From an uncultured Bacteroidales bacterium (GTDB taxonomy: Bacteria > Bacteroidota > Bacteroidia > Bacteroidales > Bacteroidaceae), in the NCBI GenBank assembly GCA_945836755.1, contig CAMAMB010000014.1, forward strand, positions 1 to 47,352: a DNA stretch of 47,352 nucleotides, given 5' to 3'. Positions within the stretch are counted from its first letter, which is position 1, and the number at the start of each line of letters is the position of its first letter. A program made the translations under genes and the position numbers. A model generated the notes under the pieces. It was given only the letters and a program-made list of their open reading frames with translations. It did not search any database and had not been told where the DNA came from. Shown in pieces: positions 8,416-31,940 of this stretch.

Positions 8416-8580
8416 ATGAAACAATATAAGAAGCCTTTCACCCAAGCGGTGAACCTCCACACGGCCGAGAGCCTGCTCACCGGCTCAGGCATTGAGATCA
8501 AAGACGACTGGACCGACACCGAAGAATACAGCAACCAAAAAGGAGGCTGGTCGTCTGAAAGCTGGACCAACGAAGATTAA
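8416..8580 (+). CDS. Small protein (54 aa), partner of the large secreted protein
   Basis: ATG 8416 to TAA 8580. The product starts 'MKQYKKPFTQAVNLHTAESL', continues with 'LTGSGIEI', then an acidic stretch, 'EEYSNQK', and a Trp-containing tail 'GGWSSESWTNED'. It has no signal peptide or domain I can name. It shares a loose pattern with the small genes at 16074-16298 and 31746-31940: a basic N-terminus with an aromatic residue, a hydrophobic stretch ending at Gly-Ser, an [L/Y]SN-x-[K/R] motif, and Trp close to the C-terminus. All three directly follow a giant secreted protein gene. The gap here is 27 bases and a strong terminator lies just downstream, so it is very probably co-transcribed with the 944-aa protein gene. 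I infer a conserved but uncharacterised small-protein family; a peptide precursor or secretion helper are both possible. Confidence 0.7.
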   Translation: MKQYKKPFTQAVNLHTAESLLTGSGIEIKDDWTDTEEYSNQKGGWSSESWTNED

Positions 8581-8606
8581 CGGTCTCACGTAGACCATCG
8601 TACTAT

Positions 8607-8646
8607 AAGGTGCGCCCCCACCACAGCCTGGCGGCGCACCTTTTTT
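8607..8646 (+). terminator. Rho-independent terminator
   Basis: A perfect 10-bp stem, AAGGTGCGCC (8607-8616) with GGCGCACCTT (8633-8642), followed by a T run to 8646. It closes the unit of the 944-aa protein gene and its 54-aa partner. Confidence 0.85.
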
Positions 8647-8672
8647 ATGTCCCGCCGCCGCGCCAAGGAATG

Positions 8673-8714
8673 CCGCCCACCCTGCCACCTGCACCGCCCA
8701 CCCTGCCGCCTGCA
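8673..8714. repeat. 21-bp tandem repeat, two units
   Basis: Two adjacent 21-base units (8673-8693 and 8694-8714), identical except for one A/G, begin CCGCCCACCCTGCC. This is the same period as three other intergenic minisatellites in the window, but the unit sequence is unrelated. Confidence 0.6.
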
Positions 8715-8871
8715 CCGCAGACGTACTGCGCCATGACCACCCACATCGCGCCGGCAGCACCGCCGCACCGCCGCCCGGCCCTAAGTATATGCGGCCTGCA
8801 TGCCCCCGATGCCAAGTTTTATTGCTACCTTCGCGCCACTATTCTGACTTAACCCCCACATTCTCCCACAC

Positions 8872-9663
8872 ATGTCACGCACACTCCGCCTGCTCCTCAC
8901 CCTGCTCCTCACCCTCGGCCCGCTAAGGGGAATGGCCCAGGTCAACGCCCAGCTGTTTTACGACTTCGGCGACGACCGCCGCTTCACCACCCTCACCCTC
9001 GAAATGTTCAAGGCCGACAAGTGGGGCAGCACCTTCTTCTTTGTAGACACCGACTTCAACTACGACAAACACACCGCAGGCCCTAACTGCGCGCCGGGAG
9101 GCAGCTACCTCGAGATTGCCCGCAGCCTCAACTTCTGGCAGAAGCACAAAGCCCTCGCGCCATGGAGCCTCCACGTGGAGTACAACGGCGGCATCACCGC
9201 CTCCTACCCCATCAACCACGCCTGGCTCGGCGGCGTGGAGTACTTCATGCACGACGCCACCTTCCGCCACACCCTCACTCTCCAGCTGCTCTATAAGCAC
9301 ATCATGAAGACCGACGCCGACCTGCCCTTCCAGTTCACCGCCGTCTGGGCATGTCGGGACCTCTTCGGCGTCAAGGGCCTCACCTTCTCGGGCTTCCTCG
9401 ACTATTGGCGCGAGAAGCACCAGACCGACTTCCACATGGTCGTCAGCGCCCCGGCCGACGCCACGGCCGAGCCCTCCGCCGTGCTCGCTTCCAAGACGGA
9501 GCACTACGTCCTCCTCACCGAGCCTCAGCTGTGGTACAACGTGGGGCGCCATTTCGGCGTAGACAATCTGCACGTCGGCACCGAGGTGGAGCTGAGCGAG
9601 CACTTCGGTTCCACCTCCGGCTTCAAGTGTCGGCCCTGCCTCGGCGCCAAGTGGATATTCTGA
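8872..9663 (+). CDS. DUF5020 family outer membrane protein (Tsx-like barrel)
   Basis: A 263-aa protein with a signal peptide (about 1-22, 'LRLLLTLLLTLGPLRGMAQ'). Strands typical of the DUF5020/nucleoside-channel (Tsx-like) group follow: 'AQLFYDFGDDRRFTTLTLEM', 'STFFFVDTDFNYD', 'SLHVEYNGG', 'FSGFLDYWREK', and a closing 'CLGAKWIF' ending in Phe. By family resemblance it should be a small outer-membrane channel or binding barrel, possibly for nucleosides, but the substrate is not shown. A near-consensus -7 box (TACCTTCG, 8825-8832) lies 39 bases upstream. It stands alone on the + strand between the terminator of the previous unit and the TonB receptor, which has its own promoter. Confidence 0.8.
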   Translation: MSRTLRLLLTLLLTLGPLRGMAQVNAQLFYDFGDDRRFTTLTLEMFKADKWGSTFFFVDTDFNYDKHTAGPNCAPGGSYLEIARSLNFWQKHKALAPWSLHVEYNGGITASYPINHAWLGGVEYFMHDATFRHTLTLQLLYKHIMKTDADLPFQFTAVWACRDLFGVKGLTFSGFLDYWREKHQTDFHMVVSAPADATAEPSAVLASKTEHYVLLTEPQLWYNVGRHFGVDNLHVGTEVELSEHFGSTSGFKCRPCLGAKWIF

Positions 9664-9772
9664 CCGCCGCCTCCGCCACGCGCCGCCGAGCGTGAGCCCG
9701 GACCTTCCACAGCTGCGGCCCACCGCCGGCCCGGTCCGGCGCCTGCGTCACTTTATCCCCATAAATAAGGAT

Positions 9773-9810
9773 AACGGGTGTAGAGTTACCTACGTAACTT
9801 TGCACCCGTT
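9773..9810 (+). promoter_or_regulatory. Promoter of the TonB receptor gene inside a 38-bp interrupted palindrome
   Basis: The exact -7 box TAACTTTG is at 9795-9802, 28 bases before ATG 9831. It lies inside a symmetric structure: outer arms AACGGGTG (9773-9780) and CACCCGTT (9803-9810), a 3+3 mismatch, inner arms AGTTA (9784-9788) and TAACT (9795-9799), and a 6-base centre. Symmetry over a promoter suggests an operator for a dimeric repressor or a hairpin in the transcript; the regulator is unknown. Confidence 0.6.
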
Positions 9811-9830
9811 CATTCATACCCTTTCCCCTT

Positions 9831-12218: not shown

Positions 12219-12256
12219 GGCGCGCTTACATACACATTCCTTTCTTCGGAGACAGC

Positions 12257-12305
12257 CCGCGGGGGTGGATTGCATAGCATGACGTCATTGCAACCACCCC
12301 CGCGG
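12257..12305 (+). terminator. Terminator-like hairpin after the TonB receptor gene
   Basis: A 12-bp perfect GC-rich stem (CCGCGGGGGTGG at 12257-12268, complement at 12294-12305), 38 bases past the stop codon. The loop end carries a further TTGCA/TGCAA match. There is no U-tract, so termination is plausible rather than certain. Confidence 0.5.
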
Positions 12306-12824: not shown

Positions 12825-12860
12825 CCGGGCTGCTTCCCGTAAAAATGGGAGGCAGCCCGG
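12819..12860 (-). terminator. Rho-independent terminator of parC
   Basis: On the minus strand, 45 bases past the parC stop, arms 12847-12860 and 12825-12838 form a 14-bp stem with one G-U pair. It is followed by a U-tract complementary to GGAAAAA (12818-12824). The U-tract is also the tail of the last 22-bp repeat unit. Confidence 0.85.
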
Positions 12861-12905
12861 GCTCTATGGAGATGAGGCTATGGATGTCGGTCCGCCGGCC
12901 GGCGA

Positions 12906-16073: not shown

Positions 16074-16298
16074 TTACTTGCTCATGTTCTTCCAGATAGC
16101 GTTGTCGGACTGGTCGTGCTTGTCGCGCTTGTTGGACAGCTCCGCCCAACCATCGTCCTCGTCTGCCGGCCCTTCCCCAAAGGCCGTAGACCCATCAAGG
16201 ATGTGGCTGCCCGGGAACAACATGACAACGGAGCATTGGGGAGCGACGTAAGTACGACGCGCTATGGTAGCGGCTGCTGATGTTTTTTTCTTATTCAT
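16074..16298 (-). CDS. Small protein (74 aa), partner of the M60 metalloprotease
   Basis: The gene starts 29 bases after the stop of the 3064-aa M60-like protease gene, same strand, and is probably co-transcribed. Visible parts are a basic N-terminal segment ending 'IARRTYVAPQ', a hydrophobic stretch 'CSVVMLFPGSHILDGS', an acidic region 'ADEDDGWAELSNKR', and a Trp-containing tail 'AIWKNMSK'. It has no signal peptide or recognised domain. The same order of elements appears in the small genes at 8416 and 31746; the closest shared pieces are [KR][KR]-x-[YF] near the start, Gly/Ser at the end of the hydrophobic part, and [L/Y]SN-x-[K/R]. It could be an unmodified small protein, a peptide precursor with leader and variable core, or a secretion accessory. 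Nothing here decides between these. Confidence 0.7.
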   Translation of the reverse strand: MNKKKTSAAATIARRTYVAPQCSVVMLFPGSHILDGSTAFGEGPADEDDGWAELSNKRDKHDQSDNAIWKNMSK

Positions 16299-16327: not shown

Positions 16328-19300
16328 TTAGCGTACCACTGAGGCACCTGTGCCTGCGACCTTGACGAAGCGCTTCTGACCGTTGACAATGTAAATGCCG
16401 GTCTGGTCGATGCGCTGGAGACGGCGTCCGGAGAGGTCGTAGATGGTCTCCTTGGTTTCGGAGCCGAGGAGCGCATCTTCTACGTCGGTCTGAGTACCAA
16501 ATCTGAAGGTGAAGGCAGAGGCTGTGCCCTGCTCGGTGCGCCAGGGCAGGTACATCTTATTGGCAGTAACCCTGAAGTAGCCGCCGTTGTCAGTACCCAC
16601 GGTGGAGTTGCTATCTTCGTCAGTGGTGCCGCCGTTAGCGTCGTACTGAAGCCATGCCCAGTAGAGGCCGACAACCTCGTTCTTGACGCCGAAGAGGTAG
16701 TACTTGTAGCCTGCTTCGCCCTGTACATAGGTGGTGTAGGGAGAACCCTGGAAGAGGTTGGTGGCAGGGGCTGTACCCTCGTCGGTGGTCGAGAGCTTGA
16801 AGTCGTATGTGCCGGCGGGCGCGGTGATGATGACAGCCGTGTTGGCAGGCAGCACGTCCGTGATGGGTCTGAGGCTGAGGTAGCTGGTCGTACCGCTGTT
16901 GATGATGGCATCGGCTTCACTGGCTGCGTAGTGTGCCTCTACGCCTGCGGGTATGATGGCAGGATAGTTGAGGTAGAGACCGGCGCGGCCGTACTTGGTG
17001 ACAGCGACGCGGGTGTTAATCTCTTCGGGAGCGTCGAGCTTCTCGATGTACCAGGCAGAGGCGGAGTTCTTGCCGCCATCCCAGGTTACCACACAGTTCA
17101 GGTCCCTCTGAGCGTGGAGTTGATTTCCATTCACCTTGATGTTCAGCTGGCTGTCGCCGAGCAGGCTGAAGGTGACGGGCTGCGGGCTGGTGGAAAGCTG
17201 ACGTGCCCTGTAACTGTTGCCGGTATGTGTCATATAGGTGCCCGTGTGCAGGTTCTTGAGGTAGACCTCTCCGTTCTCTCCCTGCTCAAACTGCCATACG
17301 CTGACGGCGTCGGTCTCAGAAGCGGCGGGGCGTATCGTGAGGCTGAAGTCGGTCACGGAGACAGCGTTGCTGTTGGGGCCTGCGAGCGTCATGACCACGG
17401 AGGACTTGCCGCAGTTGGTCACGGTGCGAATCTGGGTGAGGCTCGTGGTGGTGTACTGCTGGCTGTCGTCGTTGAAGGTCAGAGTGAGGGCCTGAGAGTG
17501 GTTGCTGTTGGCAAAGCTGAGGGAATATGTGTCAATCACGTAGCCTGAGGGAGCATTCAGCGTATAGGTGGCTCTGTTGTCATTGCCGCTATACAGCAGG
17601 AGGCTGTTGTCGGCGGCTGTGGAAGCGTTGTTGGCATTCGAGACGAGGGTCACTGCCGGTGTCGCTGTGCTGGTCCAGGTCTTCCAATATGTGTTTGTGC
17701 CGTTGTCGCGAGTACCGTTGTTGAGGTTGACGTTGTAGGGAGTGTTGACCTCGGCCATATTGGCGAGACGCCAGTAAGCCTTGTTTTCCTCGGGCTTAGC
17801 GTAGATGACGGCGCCGGAGGAGTAGCCGGAATTGGCACTGCGTAGCAGATAATAGGCATCGAAGTCAATCTCGTTGACCACGAGCGCCTCGTTGGCAGCT
17901 ACGAGCGCATCGTAAGCGGCAGTGAGGAAGCTGTCTTCACCACCGTACTCAAGATAGTAGTAGGCGGGGACGTAGGCATCGGTATAGGCGGAGGCCAAGC
18001 TCTCGGGGTAGTAGCCGATGGCAGTATTACTAATCAACTCCGAGGGGAAGGCCTTCGTTTCTGCCGTCATGTCAATCGCAATCTTCGTCTCGTTGTGGAA
18101 GTAGTTGTAGAGCTGATTGTAGGCAGCACTACGGGTCGGGTCGATTTCCTCGAACTGGAAGTTGGAGCCGCCGTCGGTGGCATTGTTATAGAAGCCCATG
18201 TTCTTGCTCACGCCACCATTGTTGGAGATGTAGAAGGTGGTGTTGGTGCTGCTTCCGTCCGCCGCGGTGGTGGTCTTCACGGTGGTGATGTTGTACCAGC
18301 CGCTGGTGGAAGCTTCGTTGGTGATGGTCCACTCGTTGGCACCCACGTTCGCCGCGTCGACGGCGAGACCTTGGAGCTTGCCGGCGCCCACTGCGAAGTC
18401 ACCGGTGGTGCAGGCGAGTACGCGGTCGGTGGTGTTTTTGTTCACGATGTAGAGTTTCGGAGCCTCAGAGGCAGCGGTGAAGTACCATGCCTGACGGTCA
18501 ACGCCGAGGTCGTAGTCCGTGGTGAGCTGCACCTTGGTGCTGCTGGGATCACTGGTGGTGCGTGCCTGCCAGAGGGGACGACCGCTGCGGTTCACGTAGA
18601 TACGATAGTAGTGCGGAGCAGCGGGGTCGGTGGTCAGTTTGACGGGCAGGGCGGCGTATGCCACGAGCTTCTGCAGGATAATCTGCTGAGCCTGCACGAG
18701 GGCGGTCTGCTCGTCGACTGCGGGCTGGAACACCGAGGTGTCGTCGCTGACGGCCTGGGCTGCGTCAATCACAGCCTTGACCTTGGCGAGGTTGGCAGCG
18801 GTGAGGTTGAGCGAGCCGGCGTAGTCGGACTTGATGGTAGTGCACTCAGCGTCGGAGAAGCAGTCGGCGTAGGCGGCGTTGAGGGTTGCGAGCGCTGCGT
18901 TGAGGGCTGTCTTGTCGGGCGGCAGATAGGGAGCGAACTGGAAGAGCGAGCCGGCATTGTCGGCGTCGGTTTCGAAACCGATGTTGTCGGGATTTTCAAT
19001 GATGCCATTCCAGTTGTGGAGATAGACGGGCGTCGCAGCATTGGGCGCGGGGGCGATGTTGAACCAGCCATCGTTGGCAGCGTTGGCTGTGATGGTCCAC
19101 TGGCGAGCGTCGAAGGTCTGCGTGGCTTCGTCGGCGGCGAAGGCTTTCACCTTGCCGGCACCTGCGCCGAGGTCGCCGGTGATGACGGAGAAGACCTTGT
19201 CGTCGGCAGCGGCGTGCATGTAGAGACGTGCACCTTCTGTGCCACGGGTGAAGTAGAAGGCCTGGTAGATGTTGCCGCCTTCAAGCGTGGCGTTATACTT

Positions 19301-22300: not shown

Positions 22301-25300
22301 GTAGTCGCCGGTGCTTGCGTTCTTGAAGGTGTAGGCGCCGGCGGTGGTGGTGGATGCCTCCACAATCCATTGTCCCGGCTCGGGCACGTTAGCCACCACC
22401 ACGCCGCCGCTGACGTTGGCGGTGGTCACCTTCTTGGTAGTGACGTCGTTGGTGGTAGTCACTGTCTCGTTGATGTAGATGGAGGAAGCGCTCTTGTTCA
22501 CCAGCACGCAGGTGCTTCCGGGGAGGAGAGCGACGCGGGCGAACTCGTTGGCCATGACGGCGTCATACTCTGCCTTGAGGGCGCTGTAGGCGCTGACGTA
22601 GCCGCTCTGTGCGTTTTCGTCGTAGAGTGCCTTTGCTTGGTTGTAGAGGCTGATGAGGGTGGCCACTTCTGATTGCTTGTAGAAGCCCACCTTGGTGTAG
22701 TCGGTGCCGGAAGTGCCGCCGTTGTCGACAGCATCCACCACATTCTTCACATCGTCGAGCAAGCCGGAGAGAAGGCTGATGGCAGCGGAACCGCCGTCGT
22801 ATACCACGGGGGTGGCATTGCCTTCAGCGTTGAGCACCTGCACGGTGGCCGTACCTTTGGCGACGGCGAGGAGGGCGGTGTCGCTCAGGGGGAAGGAGTA
22901 GTCGGAGGAGAAGGAGAGGAGGTTGCCGTCAGCGTCGTAGATGAGGAAGCCGACACCGCCTGTAGCGCCACTCATGGTGGCTGTGCCGTTGGAGGCGGTG
23001 AGTTCGTAGGTTCCCGTCACTTCGTCGTTGGAGGTAGTGCCGTTATAGTCGGTGTAGGCGCCGAGGTCGGAGTAGGTGTTGTTGTCCCACCACGCTCTCG
23101 GTGTCACGCCGTCGTGCTGGTAGAAGGTGGCGCCGGTGGTGCAGTCGTTGATGAAGAGCACGGTGTGGTTCTCGGGGTATCCCAGAGCCTTGACATAGGC
23201 GATGGTGGCGTCTATCTGTGCCTGCGTCTGGGTGTACTCGGAGCTGGAGTAGTCGCCCACGTAGCGCTTGTCCATCGGGGTGAAGAAGCCGTAGGCGCGG
23301 AAGAACTCGGTGAGGTCTTCGCCGGCGGCTTCGCAGCACTTCTTGTAGAAGTGGAGGAGAGGGGTCTTACCGGTGACCACGGTGCCGTTCTCCACGGTCT
23401 GCACGTCGAGCTGGTTGTAGGTGCGGGTGATGGGGTCGCGGCGCAGCATCTCGAACAGACGGGGATAGAACTTGTTGTTGTGTCCCGCGAGATGGTAGTA
23501 GAGCCAGAGCTTGTAGAACATCTGCGTCTGTGCCCAGATGTTGTTGGTGAAGAAGTCGCTGTTCTCTTCGTTGTAAGCCTTGAGCACTCGGGTGAGGTCG
23601 CCCTCTCCGCCGTTGGTGCGGCTGGTGGCGAGGCCGCCATACCAGGCACAGATGTTGGCGAAGAGGTTGTTGGTCACCTCGGTCAGGCCGTTCATGTTGA
23701 TAGGCCCTTGGTGCTGGTGTCCTATCTCATGGGCGGGCCCCCAGACGGCACCGGCCTGGTCGATGATGCCCTGGATGATGCTCTGGAAGGTGGAGTAGTT
23801 ATAGTTACTGCTGGTCCAGCCGCCGGACATGTAACCGGTGGGGATACCGATGGCGAGGCAGTGCATGCGGTAGTAGTCCTCGTAGGAGGAGGCATATTCG
23901 CCGTCGTTACCCGTATAGGCATAGACGCCGCGGGAGCGATCGTCGAGGGTGGGGAAGAGTGAGTTGGCGGAAGCCACACTTTCGGCGCTTTCCAGGCCCA
24001 TGGTCAAGTTCTGCGCCCATACCACGCGGTTCCAGCGCTCGAGGAAGTCGGGCACGCGGACGAGGCGGTTGCCTTCGGCGTCGGCGGTGAAGTAGTATTC
24101 AGTACCGTGATAGGAAGTTCCGCCTTCTACCACGGGTTCTCTGAAGTTGAACTGGAAGACGATGCGCTTGCCCACGATGGTGATGTCGTCGAGCACGTTG
24201 CGGGCTGCGAGGTAGTCCCAGTCGTATTCGTTGTCGCCGGTGGGGGTGACGTTCTCGCCGGTGCGTCCGTGGGCGTAGAGAGCGTCGCCCACCTCGTTGT
24301 AGTAACCGTTGACGTTACCTCCCTCGATGTGTATCTTTAGGTCGGGGTAGAAGGAGAGGGGATGGGCGCCCTTGTTGGTCGTGCCGTCCCATGCCTTCAT
24401 GGTGTTGGCGGTGTAGTAGATGCAGGTCCACTGTTTATCCACGAAGCAGGGGATGACGTTGAGACCTGTATGGAGCTGCACGCCGTCGGTGGCGTTGCCG
24501 GCTTGTCCGTGTCCGGAGTAGCTGCCGAGGTAGAGCGAAGCGCCCTCCTTGATTTCGCCATCCACCATTATATATAAGGCGTCACGCTCCTTGGTGATGA
24601 TGCCGGTGGGGTTGTTGAGGTTGGTGTGTATGTTTATCTTGAGGGCGGAGTTCACGCAGTCGCGGTTGGTGTAGATCTCGTAGTTCTGCACGCGGTAGCG
24701 CTTGGCGTAGTCGCCGCTCCATGCCAGGCTTTCAGTGCCGCTGACGTGGTCTTCAGCCCAGGCTGTAGCCACGTCGTCGCTCTGTTCGTTCCACACTTTG
24801 AGCACCATGTTCTGCAGGGTGACGGGCAGGGCGGTGTAGTTGGCGTCTGCCTGGAGCTCGCTGAGCGACATGGCTGCATAGGTGCTGTTGAGCGTGGTGC
24901 AGGCGTTATCGCTGAAGATGGCGGCGAGGTTCGCCTTGAAGCCTGTAATCTGCGAGTCTGTGAAGACGAAGTTGTTGATGGAAGTCCAGTTGGCTTCGAT
25001 TTCGGCTGCAGTCAGCTCTACTTCGGTGATGGTCCAGTGGGTGGCCTGTCCGTCGGTGCTCCATCCCACGATGTTCTTGGAACCATCACAGTGCATCTTG
25101 TTCCTGCCGCTGCTGCTGTTGCTCACACTCAGCGTGTTGTAGCTGTCACCTACGGTGAGCAGGTAGAGATAGGTGTTGTCGGTAGTGGTGCTTTCGACGA
25201 GCTTCCACTGCGTGCTTTGGCCCGCGCCTTGCAGGTATCGGCCGTTGCCGTAGCTGCGCAGGCGGTAGCGTGGCACGCTGTTGCCGTCGTTTGAAACTTC

Positions 25301-25522
25301 GTCCACATACCACAGCTGTGAGTTGGAACTTTCGACCGTCGCGGCGCCGATGGCTGTCGTCATCGAGCCTACTGACATGGAGTAACCGGGGTACATCCTG
25401 TTCACGAAGCGGTATACCTTGCCCGGCACCAACTCTGTGAGCTGGGCGTGGCCGCCAAGACAGATGAAACACCCCAGGACCATGAGGAGGCAGAACCTCC
25501 AGGCGATGTAGATGTTTTTCAT
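16328..25522 (-). CDS. Giant secreted M60-like (mucinase/enhancin type) zinc metalloprotease
   Basis: A 3064-aa protein that probably cleaves mucin-type glycoproteins at the cell surface. Signal peptide (about 1-26, ending 'GGHAQ'); a ricin-like domain (about 28-170); a catalytic region (about 275-790) with HEIGH at 598-602 and the likely third zinc ligand Glu615 in 'GLTEVTNN', the gluzincin M60 spacing; a second ricin-like domain (about 1000-1140); two F5/8-type (CBM32-like) domains (about 1175-1330 and 1440-1600), each with 'DGDKTTF(F/L)HT'; then three tandem repeats of about 265 aa starting near 1757, 2026 and 2289. The end carries 'IYDLSGRRL...GIYIVNGQK' plus a short unusual extension. 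The open frame reaches 61 codons further upstream, but ATG 25522 gives the signal peptide. A 74-aa gene follows after 29 bases. No frameshift was seen. Confidence 0.88.
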   Translation of the reverse strand: MKNIYIAWRFCLLMVLGCFICLGGHAQLTELVPGKVYRFVNRMYPGYSMSVGSMTTAIGAATVESSNSQLWYVDEVSNDGNSVPRYRLRSYGNGRYLQGAGQSTQWKLVESTTTDNTYLYLLTVGDSYNTLSVSNSSSGRNKMHCDGSKNIVGWSTDGQATHWTITEVELTAAEIEANWTSINNFVFTDSQITGFKANLAAIFSDNACTTLNSTYAAMSLSELQADANYTALPVTLQNMVLKVWNEQSDDVATAWAEDHVSGTESLAWSGDYAKRYRVQNYEIYTNRDCVNSALKINIHTNLNNPTGIITKERDALYIMVDGEIKEGASLYLGSYSGHGQAGNATDGVQLHTGLNVIPCFVDKQWTCIYYTANTMKAWDGTTNKGAHPLSFYPDLKIHIEGGNVNGYYNEVGDALYAHGRTGENVTPTGDNEYDWDYLAARNVLDDITIVGKRIVFQFNFREPVVEGGTSYHGTEYYFTADAEGNRLVRVPDFLERWNRVVWAQNLTMGLESAESVASANSLFPTLDDRSRGVYAYTGNDGEYASSYEDYYRMHCLAIGIPTGYMSGGWTSSNYNYSTFQSIIQGIIDQAGAVWGPAHEIGHQHQGPINMNGLTEVTNNLFANICAWYGGLATSRTNGGEGDLTRVLKAYNEENSDFFTNNIWAQTQMFYKLWLYYHLAGHNNKFYPRLFEMLRRDPITRTYNQLDVQTVENGTVVTGKTPLLHFYKKCCEAAGEDLTEFFRAYGFFTPMDKRYVGDYSSSEYTQTQAQIDATIAYVKALGYPENHTVLFINDCTTGATFYQHDGVTPRAWWDNNTYSDLGAYTDYNGTTSNDEVTGTYELTASNGTATMSGATGGVGFLIYDADGNLLSFSSDYSFPLSDTALLAVAKGTATVQVLNAEGNATPVVYDGGSAAISLLSGLLDDVKNVVDAVDNGGTSGTDYTKVGFYKQSEVATLISLYNQAKALYDENAQSGYVSAYSALKAEYDAVMANEFARVALLPGSTCVLVNKSASSIYINETVTTTNDVTTKKVTTANVSGGVVVANVPEPGQWIVEASTTTAGAYTFKNASTGDYWLALSQSTELLAGADKKDYTLVDNNNGTWGIKYTGNNQLIHKSGGNQIVGWWDTTNQNSHWYITMVSKDEVTEATANLQTLVAQTTALMNKMANVSGKGAQDMSTFRITSNATEQGHGTELMVDGDKTTFFHTVWSGTAVNENHYFQIDCGEGLSLGDFVLSYTTRPDGTGGNDAPTNIIITGSNTTDDEGNVIDWEDITTLSEGLPTDKAASYTSPTIGSSSNTYRYLRFTVTTASGGTFGGYYYFGIAELGISRPEAQVNSIVAKYAADALGANKLTNDKLITADGVLYDSKQLLASGTATASDLTTQYETLKAQYDILLATSNAAENADLYAAKADLQTVISNTQTLLDECGAVNIVTANVPLQSSDVYCNAPYTAQNNGDYTVQGDDGYHLLDGDKTTFLHTDYSGSNSADGLDHYVRINTGAAGVDVFRILYTTRNSGDGQPTSMVIEGSNEEAGTYTELATLTKDDETNRLPITTGTDYVSDYFGALGTTYQYIRLRVTGNKLNQQKGGHYWFCLAELSIEKKPSTTITNNNVGAVMDADILTTYNAIEAAQTAYDLATTVAQLNAAQADLQAQYDVLNTAKTANVEGRSDLKAAIDDATTLKNSCYETDAQGNNVVKADYLSNPNFSLEDLQALESAITAATTVYRTASATTEQVTAQVTALTAAMAQLNRSFDYMALPITLTTNETAPVKYVMYVNRGANILSQYRGTVWPDDNAEANNYKIHLAPNGVDHGNPYQAFYFTRGTSGTQLLLKAAADGRTFAAETGNLVTNGYNKVAAYDMATTSATFAAQEWVMVANESNSGWFNIKAVPADAEDANIYYLSNWGGVNGNQNYGFYGEVNDSGNLFRFEAWQEADKSALEAAIASLNSAYDSCYDIDGDNRTLKAAYADNDNFDATVLDGVATLVSEAQTVLADADQYQLAAEAKAAELNAKIADIRAQQNLATLPVTLTTDPNSPVLYTIHFERDATPYYLQYRGDESHGDSRDQYDYNKLKYNATLEGGNIYQAFYFTRGTEGARLYMHAAADDKVFSVITGDLGAGAGKVKAFAADEATQTFDARQWTITANAANDGWFNIAPAPNAATPVYLHNWNGIIENPDNIGFETDADNAGSLFQFAPYLPPDKTALNAALATLNAAYADCFSDAECTTIKSDYAGSLNLTAANLAKVKAVIDAAQAVSDDTSVFQPAVDEQTALVQAQQIILQKLVAYAALPVKLTTDPAAPHYYRIYVNRSGRPLWQARTTSDPSSTKVQLTTDYDLGVDRQAWYFTAASEAPKLYIVNKNTTDRVLACTTGDFAVGAGKLQGLAVDAANVGANEWTITNEASTSGWYNITTVKTTTAADGSSTNTTFYISNNGGVSKNMGFYNNATDGGSNFQFEEIDPTRSAAYNQLYNYFHNETKIAIDMTAETKAFPSELISNTAIGYYPESLASAYTDAYVPAYYYLEYGGEDSFLTAAYDALVAANEALVVNEIDFDAYYLLRSANSGYSSGAVIYAKPEENKAYWRLANMAEVNTPYNVNLNNGTRDNGTNTYWKTWTSTATPAVTLVSNANNASTAADNSLLLYSGNDNRATYTLNAPSGYVIDTYSLSFANSNHSQALTLTFNDDSQQYTTTSLTQIRTVTNCGKSSVVMTLAGPNSNAVSVTDFSLTIRPAASETDAVSVWQFEQGENGEVYLKNLHTGTYMTHTGNSYRARQLSTSPQPVTFSLLGDSQLNIKVNGNQLHAQRDLNCVVTWDGGKNSASAWYIEKLDAPEEINTRVAVTKYGRAGLYLNYPAIIPAGVEAHYAASEADAIINSGTTSYLSLRPITDVLPANTAVIITAPAGTYDFKLSTTDEGTAPATNLFQGSPYTTYVQGEAGYKYYLFGVKNEVVGLYWAWLQYDANGGTTDEDSNSTVGTDNGGYFRVTANKMYLPWRTEQGTASAFTFRFGTQTDVEDALLGSETKETIYDLSGRRLQRIDQTGIYIVNGQKRFVKVAGTGASVVR

Positions 25523-25752
25523 AGAGATTATGAGATTGATAGAATAAAGTATTATTATACAAATAGAAATCAGCCCACACCTCTCCCTCTTGCCCTTCAT
25601 ACACGGGGCTTGCAGAGTGAGGGTAACGGCAACTCCACCATGTGGTAGAGAACAATAGGTGTATAATTTTACTCTCTCACAGCCACTTATATATTCTCTG
25701 AGCAAGGGCCGGAGCAGAGCGGAAGAATAACAAAGTCCTTCTTAGACGGGTG

Positions 25753-26561: not shown

Positions 26562-27191
26562 ATGTCAGCACTCATCAACTTCGTACTGGCCAACCTCAAC
26601 TATTGGTGGGTCTTCGTGTTCATGACCATCGAGAGTTCGTTCATCCCGTTTCCGAGCGAGGTGGTAGTGCCCCCCGCGGCCTACCTCTCCATGACGCCCG
26701 ACAGCCCGCTCCACATCGTACTCGTGGTGTTGGTGGCCACCCTTGGCGCCGACGCGGGCGCCCTCATCAACTACGGTCTGGCTCGCTGGTTAGGCCGTCC
26801 GCTGGTCTACCGCTTTGCCGACAGCCGTTTGGGCCACCTCTGCCTCATCGACCGCGCCAAGGTGGAGCATGCCGAGACCTACTTTCGCGACCATGGTGCC
26901 GCCTCCACCTTCTTCGGCCGTCTCATCCCCGCCGTGCGCCAGCTCATCAGCATACCCGCCGGTCTGTCGGGCATGAAGGTGGGTACCTTCCTGCTCTACA
27001 CCAGTCTGGGCGCCGGCATCTGGAACAGCGTGCTGGCCTTCTTAGGCTACCTCATCTACACGCAGCTGCCTGCCGGCTCCACCCGCGAAGTGGCCGACAT
27101 GGCCACCCGCTACAGCCACGAGATAGGCTACGCCATTGGCGCTCTGGCCGTGGTGGTGGTGGGCTACCTCATCTATAAGGCCCGCCAATGA
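26562..27191 (+). CDS. DedA family membrane protein
   Basis: A 209-aa inner-membrane protein of the DedA/SNARE-associated (VTT) family, whose members act in undecaprenyl-phosphate or phospholipid translocation and membrane homeostasis. Visible features are an N-terminal membrane segment with 'FMTIESSFIPFPSEVVVPPA', the family's 'E-x-x-x-P-x-P-x-E' region; a second hydrophobic block around 'LVVLVATLGADAGALINYGL'; the conserved 'FFGRLIPAVRQLISIPAGLS' around residues 123-142, with the Arg-rich amphipathic hairpin; and two C-terminal membrane segments. Length is typical. ATG 26562 was chosen because the upstream frame is proline-rich noise before the promoter. The stop overlaps the start of the DUF3316 gene by ATGA, suggesting translational coupling. 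Confidence 0.9.
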   Translation: MSALINFVLANLNYWWVFVFMTIESSFIPFPSEVVVPPAAYLSMTPDSPLHIVLVVLVATLGADAGALINYGLARWLGRPLVYRFADSRLGHLCLIDRAKVEHAETYFRDHGAASTFFGRLIPAVRQLISIPAGLSGMKVGTFLLYTSLGAGIWNSVLAFLGYLIYTQLPAGSTREVADMATRYSHEIGYAIGALAVVVVGYLIYKARQ

Positions 27192-28075
27192 AGACCGTCG
27201 CCACACCCGCAGCCCCACCCCCGGCGCGCCACCGCCTGCCGACGGCAGCCGTGGCCCTGCTCGCCGCGCTTGTCGGGCTGCCCCTGAGCACCCTGGCATC
27301 TACGCCCGAGGCCGACACCCGGCCCGACAGCTGCCGCCTCGACACACGCAGGGCGACGGAGCAACAGTGGCTCTACGGCATAGGCCGGGCCAATGTGCTC
27401 GACACCTATCTCTCGCCCCTCGAATATACCGGCACCGACGTGGCCATAGCCAAACGCACGGAGCGCCTCGCACGCTGGGGACGCGGCCACGTGACCACCC
27501 ACGCCTACTACTCGGGCCACTTTGCCTACGTCAAGTCGCCCACCGACGACGGCAAGGAGTGGGACGGCGAACTTACCGCCTCGGGCGGCTGGCTCTACAA
27601 CCTGCGGCCCTCCGGCCACTGGCGCATAGGCGTAGGCGGTCTCATGGAGCTCACCACCGGCTTCACCTACAACCTGCGCGGCACCAACAACCCCGCCCAA
27701 GGACGCTTGGGCACAGCCCTGCTGCTCTCAGCATTGGCCGAATACAGCTTCACCCTGCGGCGCAGGACGGCTGTGGCACGCCTCACCATAGACAGCCCCA
27801 TGGCAGGCGTGCAGTTCGCCCCCGAATACGGCCAGTCGTACTACGAAATATTCTCCTTGGGCCACAGCGACGGCGTGGTCCGCTTTACCCACCCCGGCAA
27901 CGCCCCCTCGTGCCGTCTGACCGCCACCGTGCAGCTGCCCCTGCGCGCCAGCCACCTCACCCTCGGCTATACCGGCGACGTGAGGCAGTCGCGGCTCAAC
28001 CACCTCAAACGCCACGCCTGGCGCAACTGCTTCATGATAGGCTACACACGCTCGCTATACGTGGTGAGACGCTGA
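27188..28075 (+). CDS. DUF3316 family protein, probable outer membrane barrel
   Basis: A 295-aa protein with a signal peptide (hydrophobic 'AAVALLAALVGLPLSTLAST' after a basic start). It matches the Bacteroidales DUF3316 family, with the hallmark 'YGIGRANVLDTYLSPLEYTG' near residue 62. Amphipathic strands such as 'WRIGVGGLMELTTGFTYNLR', 'LLLSALAEYSFTLRRR' and 'CFMIGYTRSLYVV' suggest an outer-membrane barrel. The function of DUF3316 is not known. The start ATG overlaps the dedA stop by 4 bases (ATGA), so the two are coupled, and the metzincin gene begins 53 bases downstream. Coupling of an envelope protein to DedA hints at a membrane-assembly role, but this is inference. Confidence 0.78.
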   Translation: MKTVATPAAPPPARHRLPTAAVALLAALVGLPLSTLASTPEADTRPDSCRLDTRRATEQQWLYGIGRANVLDTYLSPLEYTGTDVAIAKRTERLARWGRGHVTTHAYYSGHFAYVKSPTDDGKEWDGELTASGGWLYNLRPSGHWRIGVGGLMELTTGFTYNLRGTNNPAQGRLGTALLLSALAEYSFTLRRRTAVARLTIDSPMAGVQFAPEYGQSYYEIFSLGHSDGVVRFTHPGNAPSCRLTATVQLPLRASHLTLGYTGDVRQSRLNHLKRHAWRNCFMIGYTRSLYVVRR

Positions 28076-28128
28076 GACCACGGCTGGCGTCCGTCCGCCA
28101 TGTACACAAACTCCACCCATTGATACTG

Positions 28129-31100
28129 ATGAAGAAAACCCTCCTGCTGAGCCTCCTGCTGCTCACCCTCCCCGCCCTTCGCCCCTTAGGGCTGCACGCA
28201 CAGCATCACGAGTGCTGCCTCGTCAGGCCCACCGGCATAGACTCTATACGCTACCAGCGCTTTCTGCAAGGCGCGGCCGAAGCCCAACAACGGCGGCAAG
28301 CCATCAAGGGCAAGAGCCTGCCCGGCCTGACAAGCAACGTCATCTACAACAATGGCGAGGTCTACCAGTTTCGCGTGGCCCTCTGTCTCATCCCCGGCGT
28401 GCTCGACCAGTTCAACGACACCGAGGGCAACTTCAGCATGGACCTCGTGAAGAAGTGGTGGGACGCCACCGAGGCCACCCTGCAGAGCTACTACCGCCGC
28501 GACGTAGGCATCGACATACAACTCGTAAAGGACGAGCGCCTCGTGTTACAGGAGAACAACACGGGATACGACCTCTACTACAACGGGCTGCCTAACTTCA
28601 CCAAGGCCACGGCCATGATCAACAACCTCATAGGCGAAGACAACTACGACGTGGGGCTGCTCATCACCCCCGCCGTGGGAAGCCTGCAAGGACAAGCCTC
28701 CCAGGGAGGCGCCACCTCACGCTACTCAAAAGCCTCCGGCTTCGCCGTGGTACACGCCACCACCATCGCCCACGAAATGGGCCACCTCTTCGGCTGCCCA
28801 CACACCCACGAACGCTACGACGCCGACTACACAGAACCCGGACAGGGACAGAGCATCATGAGCTACGGCTACCCGCGCAACTTCTTCGCCCTGAGCAGCA
28901 TACGAACCATGCGCAACCTGCTGAAGAACCTCAACATCTACACCAACGCCGACCGCACGGAGAAAGACCTCAGCCGCAACACCGACACAGAGGGCACCAA
29001 CATCATCTACGCCTATAACGAAAGCGTCGAGCAGCCACAGCTGCAACGTGAGCTGATACGCCGGGAGTACACCGTCACACGCGGCTCGAGCTACCAGTTC
29101 TACCTGCCCCTCGCCAACGAGGCCGACGACGCCGAAAACCCCACCCTCTACGCCGCCCACGCCTTCGACATAGGCACCGAACTCTCCAACAACAGCTTCA
29201 AACCCATAGAAGCCCCCACGACAAGCAACTGCGTGATGTACCAGACACGCTACCGCAACCCCGCAGAACTGGCCGGCAACGCCCCCGAAAGCGACTGGGT
29301 AGAACCCTACACCAACGCCGCACGCACGGGTCTCTTCACCTACATGCTCGGCGCCCACCGGCAGTCAGTCTACGACACCGAGCTGAGCAAGATACGCATT
29401 GTAGAAGGCGAGCCCTTCAGCGCCAGCCTCACCTCGCCCGGCAACAGCACCCTCTTCCGCTGGGGACGGGAGTTCACCCTGGCATGGACCCCGCAGACCG
29501 AGCTATACGGCGAAGAAAGCAAGGTGCGCATACGCCTCTCGACCGACTTCGGACAGACCTACCCCTACATCGTGGCCGACAATCTGCCCAACACAGGCAC
29601 GTGGACAGGCATCTTCCCCTACATCACCATAGGGAGAGTGCCCTATTACAACTATAGCGACCTCGTCACCGGCGGCACCTTCAAGGTCGAGATCATCGGC
29701 GAAGCCGTCTACGGCGTGACCCACAACTACGCCCCCTACTACTGGAACGGCGGCACCTACGTGTGCACCGGCGGCTTCAGCCTCGACAGCTCCAACGCCC
29801 GCTACCTCTTCCGCGAGAAAGACACGGGAGCCGACGCACCCGCCCCCTACGTCAGAGTGAAAAGCCGCAGTGAGATACCCGCCACCATGCCCGAACTCGT
29901 GGCCTACCGCTCCACCTCCACCGCCACCTCGTACGCCTCCACCGCCAAGGAGACCGAAGAGGGACGCCTCGTCAGACGAACCTGGACAGCCACCATCAGC
30001 GGCACGCCCTACACCTACACACAGATATTCGAACTGCCCGAACCCGTAGCGGAGGACGCAGCGACCGTCAAAGACCTCAACGACGTGGCCGCAGAGATGG
30101 CAGACCTCATGCGCCATGAGGGAGAGCCCGGCTACCCCCTGCCCACCCTCGACGTGTACAAGGAATTCAAGACACAATACCTGAAAGTGTACGACGAAGA
30201 GGGCCACCTGCGCACCAACTACGACACCGACGCCGCACAGCAGCTCATAGAAGCCCTCGACAACCTCAGAGACATCGGCGACGCCGACATCGTCTACCCC
30301 ACCACCGGACGCTACCTGCTGCGCAGCTATCAGGCAGCCCCCGCCCCTACCCCCTACTTCTACTACCACCGGGCCAACGACGACGAGGCCGCAGAGACCT
30401 GGACCGCCACACAGGCCGAAGCCACGGCGCTACAGGTGACAGCAAGCGGCGGAAGCTACTACCTCAAAGACGACCTGGGACGCTTGCCCTACTTGGACGG
30501 CATGACCAACACGTACAACGACTTCGGCCTGCGCCGAGGGTACACCTGGGGCAGCTTCGCCCTCATCAACCACACCCTCTGGCTGGCACAGCTGAGCCGC
30601 TCGGGTAACACCTTCAGTCTCAACTACCACTACGCCGACTCACCCAAGGGCTATCTCTGCAATAACAACAACAATGTCATCGTATCTACCGACTTCCAGT
30701 TTGTGCCCATAGCCGACGCCGCTGACACACCGGCCACACAACGCTTCTACCGCCTGCGCTCACGCGCCACACAGAAGTATCTCACCCTGCCCGCCAACCT
30801 GGCCACCAACACCGACCTGCGCCTGGCCTCCACGCCCACGGAACAAAACATCTTCATGCTCCGCGACAACCAGCTCCTGGCCTACGCCACAGGCTACTAC
30901 GTGGACGGGACACGCCACGCCGCCATAGGACAGGCAGGCACCTTCACCCTCACACCCCATGCCACCGAGGCCGACTGCTACACCATAGAGACGGCAGGCA
31001 GCTACCTGAAGGCCGGCAGCGAAGGACTGCAGACCACCAACGCCACCACCGACGCCACCACCGCCTGGGAGTTTGTGGAGGTGAAGACGCTGCCCGTCAG

Positions 31101-31653
31101 CGTATCGGCCGCCGGCTACTCCACCCTCTACAGCCCCATGGCCCTACAACTGCCCGCCACACTGAAGGCATACGCCGCCACCTACATGGCCTCGACCGAA
31201 AAACTGCAACTGACGGAGGTGGAAAGCACCATACCGGCCGACGAAGCCCTCATACTCAAGGGAGAAAAAGGCACCTACCTCTTAGACGTAACCACCGCCA
31301 CGACCACAGCACCGGCCAGCCAGCTCTCAGGCACCTACCACACCACCGCCGCCACGGAAGGGCTCTACACCCTGCAGAACGGTGCCCAAGGCATCGCCTT
31401 CTACCGCTACGGATATGCAGATAGCGGCTCGGTGAGCGGACTTACGCTCAAAGGCTTCAAGGCATACCTCGAGCTGCCAGCCAACGTGCAGAGCGCCGCC
31501 TTGGAATTCAGCTTCGACCAGACCCAGACAGGCATCGACCACAGCCACGCCGCAGAGCGGGAAGCCGCAGTCTACGACCTCAGCGGACGTCGCGTAAGCC
31601 GACCCGGAAAGGGATGCTACATCGTGAACGGCAAAAAGGTGATGGTGCGCTGA
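28129..31653 (+). CDS. Large secreted metzincin-type zinc metalloprotease
   Basis: A 1174-aa secreted protease. Signal peptide (about 1-25, 'KKTLLLSLLLLTLPAL'). The catalytic domain (about 55-275) holds the extended zinc motif 'HEMGHLFGCPH' (His215, Glu216, His219, His225) and a Met-turn at Met244 in 'SIMSYGY', the metzincin pattern seen in reprolysin-like (M12B-like) enzymes. A beta-sandwich (about 430-560) with 'KVRIRLSTDFGQTYPYIVAD' follows, then a helical segment. Ricin-like repeats (about 720-990) come next. A C-terminal module with 'LQLTEVESTIPADEALILKG' precedes the terminal motif 'VYDLSGRRV...CYIVNGKKVMVR'. ATG 28129 gives the signal peptide; the longer open frame upstream overlaps two other genes. 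A 64-aa gene follows after 92 bases. Substrate unknown. Confidence 0.87.
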   Translation: MKKTLLLSLLLLTLPALRPLGLHAQHHECCLVRPTGIDSIRYQRFLQGAAEAQQRRQAIKGKSLPGLTSNVIYNNGEVYQFRVALCLIPGVLDQFNDTEGNFSMDLVKKWWDATEATLQSYYRRDVGIDIQLVKDERLVLQENNTGYDLYYNGLPNFTKATAMINNLIGEDNYDVGLLITPAVGSLQGQASQGGATSRYSKASGFAVVHATTIAHEMGHLFGCPHTHERYDADYTEPGQGQSIMSYGYPRNFFALSSIRTMRNLLKNLNIYTNADRTEKDLSRNTDTEGTNIIYAYNESVEQPQLQRELIRREYTVTRGSSYQFYLPLANEADDAENPTLYAAHAFDIGTELSNNSFKPIEAPTTSNCVMYQTRYRNPAELAGNAPESDWVEPYTNAARTGLFTYMLGAHRQSVYDTELSKIRIVEGEPFSASLTSPGNSTLFRWGREFTLAWTPQTELYGEESKVRIRLSTDFGQTYPYIVADNLPNTGTWTGIFPYITIGRVPYYNYSDLVTGGTFKVEIIGEAVYGVTHNYAPYYWNGGTYVCTGGFSLDSSNARYLFREKDTGADAPAPYVRVKSRSEIPATMPELVAYRSTSTATSYASTAKETEEGRLVRRTWTATISGTPYTYTQIFELPEPVAEDAATVKDLNDVAAEMADLMRHEGEPGYPLPTLDVYKEFKTQYLKVYDEEGHLRTNYDTDAAQQLIEALDNLRDIGDADIVYPTTGRYLLRSYQAAPAPTPYFYYHRANDDEAAETWTATQAEATALQVTASGGSYYLKDDLGRLPYLDGMTNTYNDFGLRRGYTWGSFALINHTLWLAQLSRSGNTFSLNYHYADSPKGYLCNNNNNVIVSTDFQFVPIADAADTPATQRFYRLRSRATQKYLTLPANLATNTDLRLASTPTEQNIFMLRDNQLLAYATGYYVDGTRHAAIGQAGTFTLTPHATEADCYTIETAGSYLKAGSEGLQTTNATTDATTAWEFVEVKTLPVSVSAAGYSTLYSPMALQLPATLKAYAATYMASTEKLQLTEVESTIPADEALILKGEKGTYLLDVTTATTTAPASQLSGTYHTTAATEGLYTLQNGAQGIAFYRYGYADSGSVSGLTLKGFKAYLELPANVQSAALEFSFDQTQTGIDHSHAAEREAAVYDLSGRRVSRPGKGCYIVNGKKVMVR

Positions 31654-31745
31654 CACTGCCTCGGGCTTGCCCCCGACACCGCGCCGGGAGCAAGCCACCC
31701 ACACCTATATATAATGTATATACCCCCAGACAACGACACCCACAC

Positions 31746-31940
31746 ATGAAAAGACGCCCATACACCGCCCCCGCCATCACGGACCTCTGTCTGCTCAGTG
31801 CCACCTCCTGCCCCCTGGCCTCGTCAGGCGGCTCGGGAGGAATGGGAGTGCTGCCCGACTACGGCACCGACCAGCTGAGCAACTCACGCGAAGCCCCGAC
31901 GGCCACCCACGAAGAAGGCCACGCAGAACCAAACTGGTAG
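31746..31940 (+). CDS. Small protein (64 aa), partner of the metzincin protease
   Basis: ATG 31746, 92 bases after the metzincin gene and 107 before the S41 gene. The product begins 'MKRRPYTAPAITDLCLLSAT', then 'SCPLASSGGSGG', then 'DYGTDQLSNSR', and ends in '...EEGHAEPNW'. It has the same order of elements as the small proteins at 8416 and 16074: basic start, aromatic and Ala-Pro, hydrophobic stretch to Ser-Gly, [L/Y]SN-x-[R/K], and Trp near the terminus. Here 'RRPYTAP' closely echoes 'RRTYVAP' of the 74-aa member. No recognised domain. The start is supported by similarity among the three and by the unrelated sequence upstream. Confidence 0.7.
   Translation: MKRRPYTAPAITDLCLLSATSCPLASSGGSGGMGVLPDYGTDQLSNSREAPTATHEEGHAEPNW

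Follow-up and report, generated by a model that had tools for sequence, protein, structure and literature searches.

Three small genes lie directly behind genes for secreted cargos

The window, a 47,352-nucleotide stretch of DNA from an uncultured Bacteroidales bacterium, contains three small open reading frames (ORFs), each located behind a large gene for a secreted protein on the same strand. Small ORF 1 (8416..8580, + strand, 54 aa) begins 27 nt after the stop of its partner cargo (5464..8388, + strand), a secreted protein with a Big_2 match and a short C-terminal tail of the type IX secretion system (T9SS). This cargo has 974 aa as an ORF and 944 aa counted from an internal Met, and its tail is matched by the tail profile at 8284-8385 (E 3.3e-13). 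Small ORF 2 (16074..16298, - strand, 74 aa) lies 29 nt from the stop of an M60 protease (16328..25705, - strand), which carries a short T9SS tail (16361-16453, E 1.6e-14) and a ricin-B-like match scoring under the Pfam cut-off. Small ORF 3 (31746..31940, + strand, 64 aa) is separated by 92 nt from the stop of a reprolysin-like metzincin (27136..31653, + strand), again with a short T9SS tail (31564-31650, E 7.9e-18). The metzincin ORF as listed begins 5' of the likely signal peptide. The positions and lengths of the small ORFs and the three gaps are as given in the initial annotation.

All three small ORFs are predicted to encode precursors of modified peptides. A YxxP motif is read at 8425-8436 (+ strand), 16239-16250 (- strand), and 31761-31772 (+ strand), respectively. 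By analogy with linear polyphosphorylated peptides (LPP; LppA/B/K/S/D/N; Popov et al. 2026, PMC13381572), the leader of small ORF 1 is predicted to end at about 8478, and the putative phospho-acceptor Ser codon is 8485-8487. The equivalent Ser codons are predicted at 16188-16190 in small ORF 2 and at about 31821-31823 in small ORF 3, the latter assignment being ambiguous because two Ser residues are adjacent. An inverted repeat followed by a T-run, recognized by eye, lies directly 3' of small ORF 1 (8607..8646, + strand); its 16-nt loop is beyond what the terminator scan allows, and the scan output does not include it. A scan whose models do not cover Bacteroidales promoters returned no coding-strand site in the three spacers between cargo and small gene, and an Rfam scan of the window gave no match.

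Two other secreted enzymes in the window serve as a contrast. A C10 protease related to interpain and streptopain (245..2359, + strand) ends in a short T9SS-like tail of the same kind (FTLDGRRI...RGIYLRRRGQKV) that is overlooked by the simple tail pattern, and a GH95 enzyme (41378..44935, + strand) has a longer C-terminal signal. As the initial annotation had stated, no small gene is seen behind either. Within the window, a simple small-ORF motif and the simple tail pattern each pick exactly the three pairs.

The small proteins form one family linked to T9SS cargos

The three small ORFs belong to one family, and their pairing with cargos is real and general. The likeness proposed for their products holds at the profile level: a profile of only these three proteins (A1) finds two more members in the same genome (E 1.6e-4 and 7.4e-4), both directly behind an ORF with the same tail. 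Grown profiles identify 333 members in 38 of 41 genomes of the genus, an average of eight precursors per genome. Searches of Pfam and NCBIfam returned only single chance-level matches to the family, the PDB gave none, and phage records, searched with one of the three proteins (P0001), gave no match.

The genomic context was assessed in 40 regions chosen by profile place among the matches listed, with the context unseen; seven came from the three genomes of the linkage test below, and one (L040) repeats another (L020). Of the 41 members in this sample, 39 immediately follow an ORF that carries a short T9SS C-terminal signal, and the remaining two are cut by contig ends. With iterated profiles in three whole genomes (E<=1e-3), 27 of 30 matches are on the same strand and 26-208 nt 3' of a tail-bearing ORF, distances being taken between profile matches, against a chance of 0.3-0.6% per match. 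The window's own genome has 14 matches at E<=10, all behind a tail-bearing ORF. These counts are not circular, since the small-protein profiles were made without regard to context.

The linkage has exceptions on both sides. Seven of 47 matches in the three genomes are orphans away from any tail, and four of five orphans read have no secreted cargo upstream. Conversely, 39 of 141 short-signal cargos in these genomes are partnered by profile, plus some that were missed; the tail profile (A4), derived from tails with a partner gene, may miss some of the unpartnered cargos. A sample of 40 regions with unmatched tail genes, one of which (L146) has no tail by pattern, contains 39 readable cases. No such small ORF is seen in 35 of them; of the four partners that the profile had missed, two (L142 and L143) were recognized by eye. 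M60 relatives that share 49% identity and end in such a tail lack a small gene by pattern.

Cargo and small gene are probably expressed together

No terminator-like site was found between cargo and small gene at any of 59 evaluable loci (of 63), whereas 29 of the 59 have one after the small gene, compared with 2 of 189 mononucleotide shuffles. Spacing and terminator position support co-transcription of cargo and small gene. In addition, Ka/Ks values of 0.24-0.65 in all seven non-identical close pairs indicate purifying selection and support translation of the small frames.

Partnered cargos share a tendency in their final domains

The assignment of the cargos to T9SS is based on the tail profile matches and on the presence of Sov/SprA in 40 of the 41 genus genomes, including the window's own. 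A loose T-x-I pattern, resembling a T/GI-like cleavage region, occurs in 36 of 39 cargo tails.

The partners were originally described as sharing a comparable final module that the C10 and GH95 enzymes lack. This description stands as a tendency. In the window, the final-module score is 15.8 bits for the 944-aa partner, 49.4 for the M60 protease, 68.8 for the metzincin, and 2.3 for GH95. In two held-out genomes the median is 30 bits for partnered and 0.7 for unpartnered cargos (p=9e-4), with 4 of the 14 cargos counted as partnered (L218 and L220-L222) being weak small-gene matches that lack a small ORF by pattern. When these four are removed, 9 of 10 partnered cargos exceed 10 bits.

Clearly catalytic Pfam domains occur in none of 30 partnered cargos outside the window and in 7 of 17 unpartnered ones (p=3e-4). 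The scan covered 20 of 32 cargo ORFs of a first set, and then 10 of 14 partnered and 17 of 20 unpartnered cargos. With the window cargos added, the partnered count becomes 2 of 33 (p=0.004), and within the same two genomes the comparison is 0 of 10 versus 7 of 17 (p=0.026); all these p-values are optimistic because several partnered cargos are paralogues. One partnered cargo (L067) has a 'putative carbohydrate metabolism domain'.

The similarity of core peptides follows that of the domain preceding the signal, with r=0.44 and a partial r of 0.40 when the signal is controlled for (p=0.001), more than that of the signal, for which r=0.09 when the domain is controlled for (p=0.09); the p-values are inexact because the loci share ancestry. 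The relation persists among otherwise unrelated cargos from different genomes. The analysis used 34 of 41 rows, and 32 in the leader/core comparison. The leader, too, tracks the cargo domain (r up to 0.37), so part of the co-variation may reflect shared descent.

The small proteins resemble precursors of modified peptides

The most likely role of the small ORFs is to encode precursors of modified peptides. All 51 distinct proteins in the alignment have YxxP, which is partly built in by the profile. A Ser at Y+19 to +21 is found in 49 of the 51, compared with 20% for other four-residue windows. A conserved YxxP leader and a variable C-terminus are the features of LPP precursors. The full LPP leader consensus, given as YxxPxVLxHQxIxFETxxS in passages of PMC13381572, is nevertheless absent: Y, P, and Ser are common to both, the HQxIxFET part is not conserved, and the spacing between YxxP and Ser is 1-3 residues above that of the consensus. 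For this reason, the family is filed as LPP-like and not as a member of LPP.

The genus also encodes a block of three genes that would supply the core of an LPP pathway, namely a leader-binding protein, an HprK-like kinase, and a signal-peptidase-like protease, all predicted. A PqqD-fold protein, constituting a discrete RRE as in LPP, is present in 33 of the 41 genomes. Its gene neighborhood was inspected in 17 of these 33, leaving out four second copies; the block is cut by a contig end in the window's own genome, and the order kinase-protease-PqqD is contiguous in all 16 genomes viewed completely. The AlphaFold model of the PqqD protein (pLDDT 88.6) has as its best six fold matches lasso leader-binding proteins solved with leaders. 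It matches TbiB1 and TfuB1 by both fold and profile (TfuB1 sequence profile E 2.2e-7).

The protease retains G-x-S-M, HR, and GD in 14 of 14 sequences, consistent with a SpI-like Ser-His-Asp arrangement. PF00717 exceeds its cut-off in one of three proteins scanned, the best NCBIfam model is archaeal signal peptidase I, under its cut-off, and the best PDB profile match is SEC11C (E 0.0095). In the kinase, SGTGKSTH and NDDNP are invariant in 11 of 11 sequences. Its NCBIfam HprK-related matches are far under the cut-offs, and its profile search against the PDB returned no HPr kinase and only P-loop matches to multidrug transporters (E 0.02-0.03). No NTP transferase or MsbA-like transporter lies beside the block in this genus. 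In other Bacteroidales genera (L174, L175, L179, and L181), an ABC transporter adjoins it, as does a protein resembling NTP transferases, both recognized by eye and by profiles built in this analysis.

PqqD is missing from all three genomes without small genes and from 5 of 38 with them (p=0.005), an association that may be fed by shared gaps because both groups are incomplete (58, 81, and 77% for the former; 56-89% for the latter, G010, G013, G014, G021, and G064). Across the order, PqqD occurs in 211 of 344 genomes and in 8 of 9 small-gene genomes, which is weak evidence since PqqD is common there. In two other genera, the sole small-gene match is about 6 kb from PqqD.

A proposed model of paired peptides and surface proteins

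We put the probability at about 0.75 that the small ORFs encode LPP-like RiPP precursors, linear and probably Ser-phosphorylated, each sharing a transcript with one T9SS surface cargo. One mRNA would yield both the cargo and the small gene product. The PqqD-fold protein of the genome, with the fold and gene block described above, would bind the YxxP leader, and the HprK-like kinase would phosphorylate the conserved Ser just past it, as in LPP. The Ser-His-Asp protease may then cut two residues before that Ser, between [LI] and AxS. The acidic, Trp-ended core would be exported and act together with its own cargo. Judged from the co-variation, the site of action is probably the domain left as the cargo C-terminus after removal of the T9SS signal. 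These steps, from phosphorylation and cleavage to export and action with the cargo, are predictions of the model. A further extension is tentative: each cargo may have its own (phospho-)peptide, matured by one shared set of leader-binding protein, kinase, and protease and docked on or joined to the new C-terminal domain. In that case, between a quarter and a third of the short-signal surface proteins in the genus would be two-component complexes, each pairing a protein with a RiPP.

The initial annotation had proposed a paired system in which the small protein is a secretion, maturation, or immunity partner, or a peptide precursor. The pairing is supported, and a precursor fits best in view of the YxxP leader, the conserved Ser, the variable C-terminus, and the leader-binding, kinase, and protease block. 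A general secretion factor is unlikely, because Sov/SprA is present in 40 of the 41 genomes, including the three in which no small gene was found, and because 35 of the 39 readable unmatched tail genes lack such an ORF. The small proteins could instead be unmodified chaperones or helpers for a class of T9SS cargo, which would agree with the tight pairing, the co-variation with the last cargo domain, and the absence of a signal peptide evident by eye. This is improbable given the constant YxxP...Ser N-terminus beside a variable rest, the kinase-protease-PqqD block, the members without a secreted cargo upstream, and those near PqqD loci in other genera. Inhibition of, or immunity to, the secreted enzyme is suggested by two of the three window cargos being proteases, but fits poorly and is very unlikely because none of the 30 partnered cargos outside the window is clearly catalytic.

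Precursors of lasso peptides or of C39/double-glycine bacteriocins are the least probable alternative, even though YxxP is a lasso leader motif and the hydrophobic stretch ends near Gly-Ser. The B2 leader protease (PF13471) is found in 1 of 41 genus genomes; C39 is found in 14 of 41 and not in the window's own (G000, 85% complete). Lasso maturation and C39/PCAT export were rejected, as the enzymes were not found in most small-gene genomes. A C39 peptidase transporter is present in G025, a genome without a small gene. It is possible, if somewhat doubtful, that LPP-like precursors merely share the promoters of surface genes while the peptides act alone, as a surface coat or in signalling. The orphan members would be explained, as would the occurrence of identical small proteins with two distinct cargos (L042) and the co-variation of the leader as well as the core. 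Members in G298 and G218 also lie near PqqD in what appear by eye to be capsule-type loci, where Bacillota LPP clusters are often found according to passages of PMC13381572. Against this, the peptide tracks the pre-signal domain more than the intervening signal, even across unrelated cargos and genomes, and that domain tends to be common to partnered cargos.

With the LPP-like reading, hundreds of precursors (333 matches, 41 genomes) are linked genetically to individual surface proteins. The role of the peptide thereby becomes testable: it may bind to its cargo, decorate it, anchor it, or regulate it. If true, type IX secretion would have an extra layer and a RiPP pathway of the LPP kind would exist in a second phylum. 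The tiny genes behind surface-protein genes would offer a first handle on the function of such peptides, for which passages of PMC13381572 establish neither the final product nor the role.

Comparison with known systems

The cargo tails resemble the short T9SS C-terminal domains of Prevotella intermedia as described in passages of Ye et al. 2025 (PMC11969387), sharing the Tyr/Gly motif, GxY-I, a basic end, and a T/GI-like cleavage region. Those passages do not mention small genes, and the words 'small protein' and 'downstream' are absent from the main text.

Paeninodin-like lasso systems share a PqqD-fold B1 protein and a [Y/W]xxP leader motif, and passages of PMC13381572 attribute an HprK-like kinase to paeninodin-type clusters. 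They differ in the B2 protease family, which was not found in 40 of the 41 genus genomes.

The closest resemblance is to LPP, as far as it is described in passages of PMC13381572, where phosphates sit on core Ser3 and the pathway is called restricted to Bacillota. Both have a YxxP leader, a Ser about 18-21 residues on, a variable C-terminus, a discrete RRE, and a leader protease of the signal-peptidase type with Ser-His-Asp; the kinase beside the RRE, HprK-like in LPP, is a putative counterpart in the genus. The suggestion that the system is undescribed therefore holds for the pairing, within the literature searched, and not for the kind of peptide pathway. The system in Bacteroidales differs in the leader consensus between YxxP and Ser, and the transporter and NTP transferase are not adjacent to the block in this genus. 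Its precursors are dispersed outside the enzyme block, with one (G020) about 5 kb from it, and nearly all lie directly behind T9SS cargos. Another phylum, dispersed precursors, and the coupling to T9SS cargos are what is new relative to LPP.

A small-gene family paired with secreted cargos

The small ORFs at 8416..8580 (+), 16074..16298 (−) and 31746..31940 (+) lie where the initial annotation placed them, 27, 29 and 92 nt past the stops of a 944-aa protein, an M60 protease and a metzincin. The likeness described among their products is genuine: a profile built from these three ORFs alone (A1) recovers two additional proteins in the same genome (2.25 Mb, 85% complete), with E values of 1.6e-4 and 7.4e-4. 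Both sit directly behind an ORF with a YDLSGRR...YIVNGKK-type tail, the short C-terminal signal of type IX secretion (T9SS) cargos. Grown to five members (A2), the profile matches 25 of 36 other genomes of the genus at E ≤ 0.01; at 30 members (A3) it gives 333 matches at this threshold, in 38 of 41 genomes. Among 24 genomes from other families, A2 matched a single one at the same threshold, in a region (L037) where the match is located within a 977-aa frame and was rejected as due to chance. Ka/Ks of non-identical close small-gene pairs is 0.24–0.65, below 1 in 7/7, so the small frames are, judging from sequence, very likely translated.

The proposed pairing holds under gene-neighbour statistics. 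A profile built from partnered tails (A4) finds 35 tail genes in the window's own genome, 67 in G004 and 39 in G062 at E ≤ 0.01. In these three genomes, 27 of 30 small-protein matches at E ≤ 1e-3 lie on the same strand, 26–208 nt behind a tail match, against a chance level of 0.3–0.6% per match. In the own genome, all 14 matches at E ≤ 10 do so. Seen from the cargo side, a partner match at E ≤ 10 exists for 39 of the 141 tail genes. Forty of the 102 others were read; no partner was seen in 35, the profile had missed one in four, and one lacked a tail by pattern. In 40 further regions, picked by small-protein position alone, 39 of 41 small genes are behind a tail gene and the remaining two are at contig ends. 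The gaps are mostly 20–50 nt. A terminator-like site separates cargo and small gene in none of the 59 scorable loci (of 63), and one occurs within 190 nt past the small gene in 29 of the 59, versus 2 of 189 shuffled sequences. The observation of a small-gene family paired with large secreted proteins is confirmed.

At E ≤ 10, seven of 47 matches in the three genomes lie away from any tail, five of which were read. Two are lone small genes with no tail nearby (L227, L228), one is upstream of a lipoprotein gene, fimbrillin-like by eye (L229), and one is beside genes that appear phage-like by eye (L231). The fifth (L230, 1368-4507) overlaps with the terminal part of the gene for a secreted 987-aa protein in which a dockerin-like end replaces the tail, and in another family a second small gene neighbours such an end (L097, around 1500-1656). 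Small genes are thus found behind dockerin-like repeat ends and not only behind T9SS tails, so the partner seems tied to the cargo rather than to the tail itself. By pattern search, no small gene accompanies two tail-bearing M60 relatives (49% identity).

Several pairs are repeated. In L042, identical small proteins (499-675 and 6573-6749, 2 nt differences) follow two different cargos separated by ~6 kb, a pattern suggestive of copying of the 3' part. In the own genome, a near-identical tail and small ORF occur on contigs C25 and C47 (L142, L143), and C46 holds two equal-scoring pairs ~4.3 kb apart; these repeats represent recent duplication or assembly redundancy.

Partnered cargos and co-variation

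None of 30 partnered cargos scanned has a clearly catalytic Pfam domain, which makes the M60 protease and metzincin of the window unusual partners. Sixteen have no Pfam match, and the others contain ricin-B, F5/8C, MucBP, Big_2, LRR, Fn3-type or calycin-like domains; one (L067) matches a 'putative carbohydrate metabolism domain'. Among unpartnered cargos, 7 of 17 are catalytic (M6, endonuclease I, metallophosphatase, GH16, C1, GH20, GDSL), and ricin-B, F5/8C, Big_2 and LRR domains are present there too. The common module suspected before the tail is borne out as a tendency, with a median score of 30 bits in partnered versus 0.7 bits in unpartnered cargos (p=9e-4). Scores exceed 10 bits in 13/14 partnered versus 5/20 unpartnered cargos of G004 and G062, using a profile trained on other genomes.

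Similarity of the peptide core tracks that of the pre-tail domain (r=0.44), even where the remaining cargo is unrelated. The correlation is 0.40 given the tail (p=0.001), and that of core with tail given the domain is 0.09 (p=0.09). Per 45-residue piece, it is 0.20 in the tail, 0.43–0.45 at −135 to −45, 0.18 at −225 to −180, and ≤0.09 beyond; the leader follows the same pattern more weakly (0.16–0.37, pieces from −180 to the end). Since the tail is located between the pre-tail domain and the small gene, simple linkage would not yield the dip at the tail, although conservation is also highest in the tail. The pre-tail domain is the C-terminus of the cargo once the signal is removed. That the core tracks this domain favours a peptide that would act together with its own cargo, a tentative reading that we place below even odds.

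Anatomy of the probable precursors and the block of kinase-like, protease-like and PqqD genes

YxxP occurs near the start of 51/51 distinct aligned members, partly built in by the profile; the available text of PMC13381572 describes it as the motif that discrete PqqD-like leader-binding proteins recognise. A serine follows 19–21 residues past the tyrosine in 49/51, versus 20% for other windows of equal width. The remainder is acidic and variable and ends around W-x-S-x-x-W. Family libraries and a PDB profile search do not recognise the small proteins. A leader that stays constant, joined to a remainder that varies, is how modified-peptide precursors are built; overall, the small ORFs are probably precursors resembling those of linear polyphosphorylated peptides (LPP), with a probability of about 0.75.

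PqqD (PF05402) is found in 33/41 genus genomes, mostly in single copy and including the own genome. The three genomes without a small gene all lack it, versus five among the remaining 38 (p=0.005), all eight being incomplete (56–89%). It lies behind kinase-like and signal-peptidase-like genes in the same order in 16/16 genus genomes whose surroundings were viewed in full; in the own genome, 111 nt of contig remain upstream of PqqD. The best structural matches of the predicted PqqD fold (pLDDT 88.6) are TbiB1 and TfuB1, lasso leader-binding proteins whose structures include their leaders, and its sequence profile matches TfuB1 at 2.2e-7.

All 14 protease sequences contain G-x-S-M, HR and GD, corresponding to Ser-His-Asp. 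One of three copies scanned exceeds the PF00717 cut-off; among NCBIfam models, archaeal signal peptidase I scores highest without reaching its cut-off, and the best PDB profile match is SEC11C (E 0.0095). In the kinase, SGTGKSTH and NDDNP are invariant (11/11); it gives weak matches at best, to HprK-related kinase and ScmC models, and HPr kinase is absent from its PDB matches. PF13471 is present in 1/41 genus genomes and C39 in 14/41, the latter not found in the own genome.

A secreted protein of ~140 aa, mutually similar by eye, is just upstream of the kinase of the genus block (L163 5616-6020, L164 9039-9458, L166 5862-6311, L168 9087-9536) and could be part of the pathway; the L164 copy has no Pfam match.

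Occurrence outside the genus

A 54-member profile (A5) matches 9/344 genomes of the order at E ≤ 1e-3, a lower bound given its training on the genus. Eight of the nine carry PqqD, which has little weight with PqqD in 211/344. Among the 12 loci listed for family f111, nine follow a tail, one follows a dockerin-like end, and the other two follow neither. In f56, none of ten loci is behind a tail, three being at contig edges, and the same kind of N-terminus is fused to quite different C-terminal parts (e.g. KKKYVKPDFEVIELNMEAPLLMGS).

Two genomes (G298, G218) have their sole small-gene match (E 8e-4, 6e-4) at ~6 kb from PqqD, and the neighbourhood looks capsule-type by eye. In G298 (L173, 6764-12893), PqqD, an NTP-transferase-like protein, a kinase and a precursor lie within a locus that looks capsule-export-like by eye; no protease match was found there, and a lipoprotein gene comes after the locus. 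In other families (L174, L175, L179, L181), kinase, protease and PqqD form sets with an NTP-transferase-like protein and an ABC transporter, the last two components being named by eye and found with purpose-built profiles.

In another Bacteroidales family (G095, G366; L083, L084, L091, L092, L101, L102, L106), several precursors combine a near-constant leader (KKKYVKPDFEVIELN...APLL..S) with cores that vary. These are not behind T9SS tails; some follow ORFs with a charged EGR/AEG-rich end, transposase-like by eye.

Comparison with known systems

According to the available text of Popov et al. 2026 (PMC13381572), LPP precursors share the consensus YxxPxVLxHQxIxFETxxS, and the machinery includes the leader-binding RRE LppB, the transporter LppD and the NTP transferase LppN. 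The HprK-like LppK phosphorylates core Ser3, and the signal-peptidase-like LppS (Ser-His-Asp) cuts at FET|AQS. LPP are described there as restricted to Bacillota, with their role unknown.

The core LPP parts, the kinase as a candidate, recur in the Bacteroidales set, and a serine lies in the matching place; by analogy, leader cleavage at ...[LI]|AxS and phosphorylation of the conserved serine after the leader are predicted. Its small proteins depart from the full leader consensus, the family membership of its kinase is weakly shown, and in this genus neither transporter nor NTP transferase adjoins the block, hence the term 'LPP-like'. The literature search for polyphosphorylated peptides as RiPPs gave PMC13381572 alone, and the main text of a Bacteroidales RiPP survey (PMC10352776), as far as available, mentions neither HprK nor type IX. 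No description of precursors paired with type IX secretion cargos was found in the literature searched, nor any paper linking PqqD to type IX secretion. The cargo tails correspond to the short T9SS signals described in the available text on Prevotella intermedia (PMC11969387), and the coupling to T9SS would be the new part relative to the known LPP kind.
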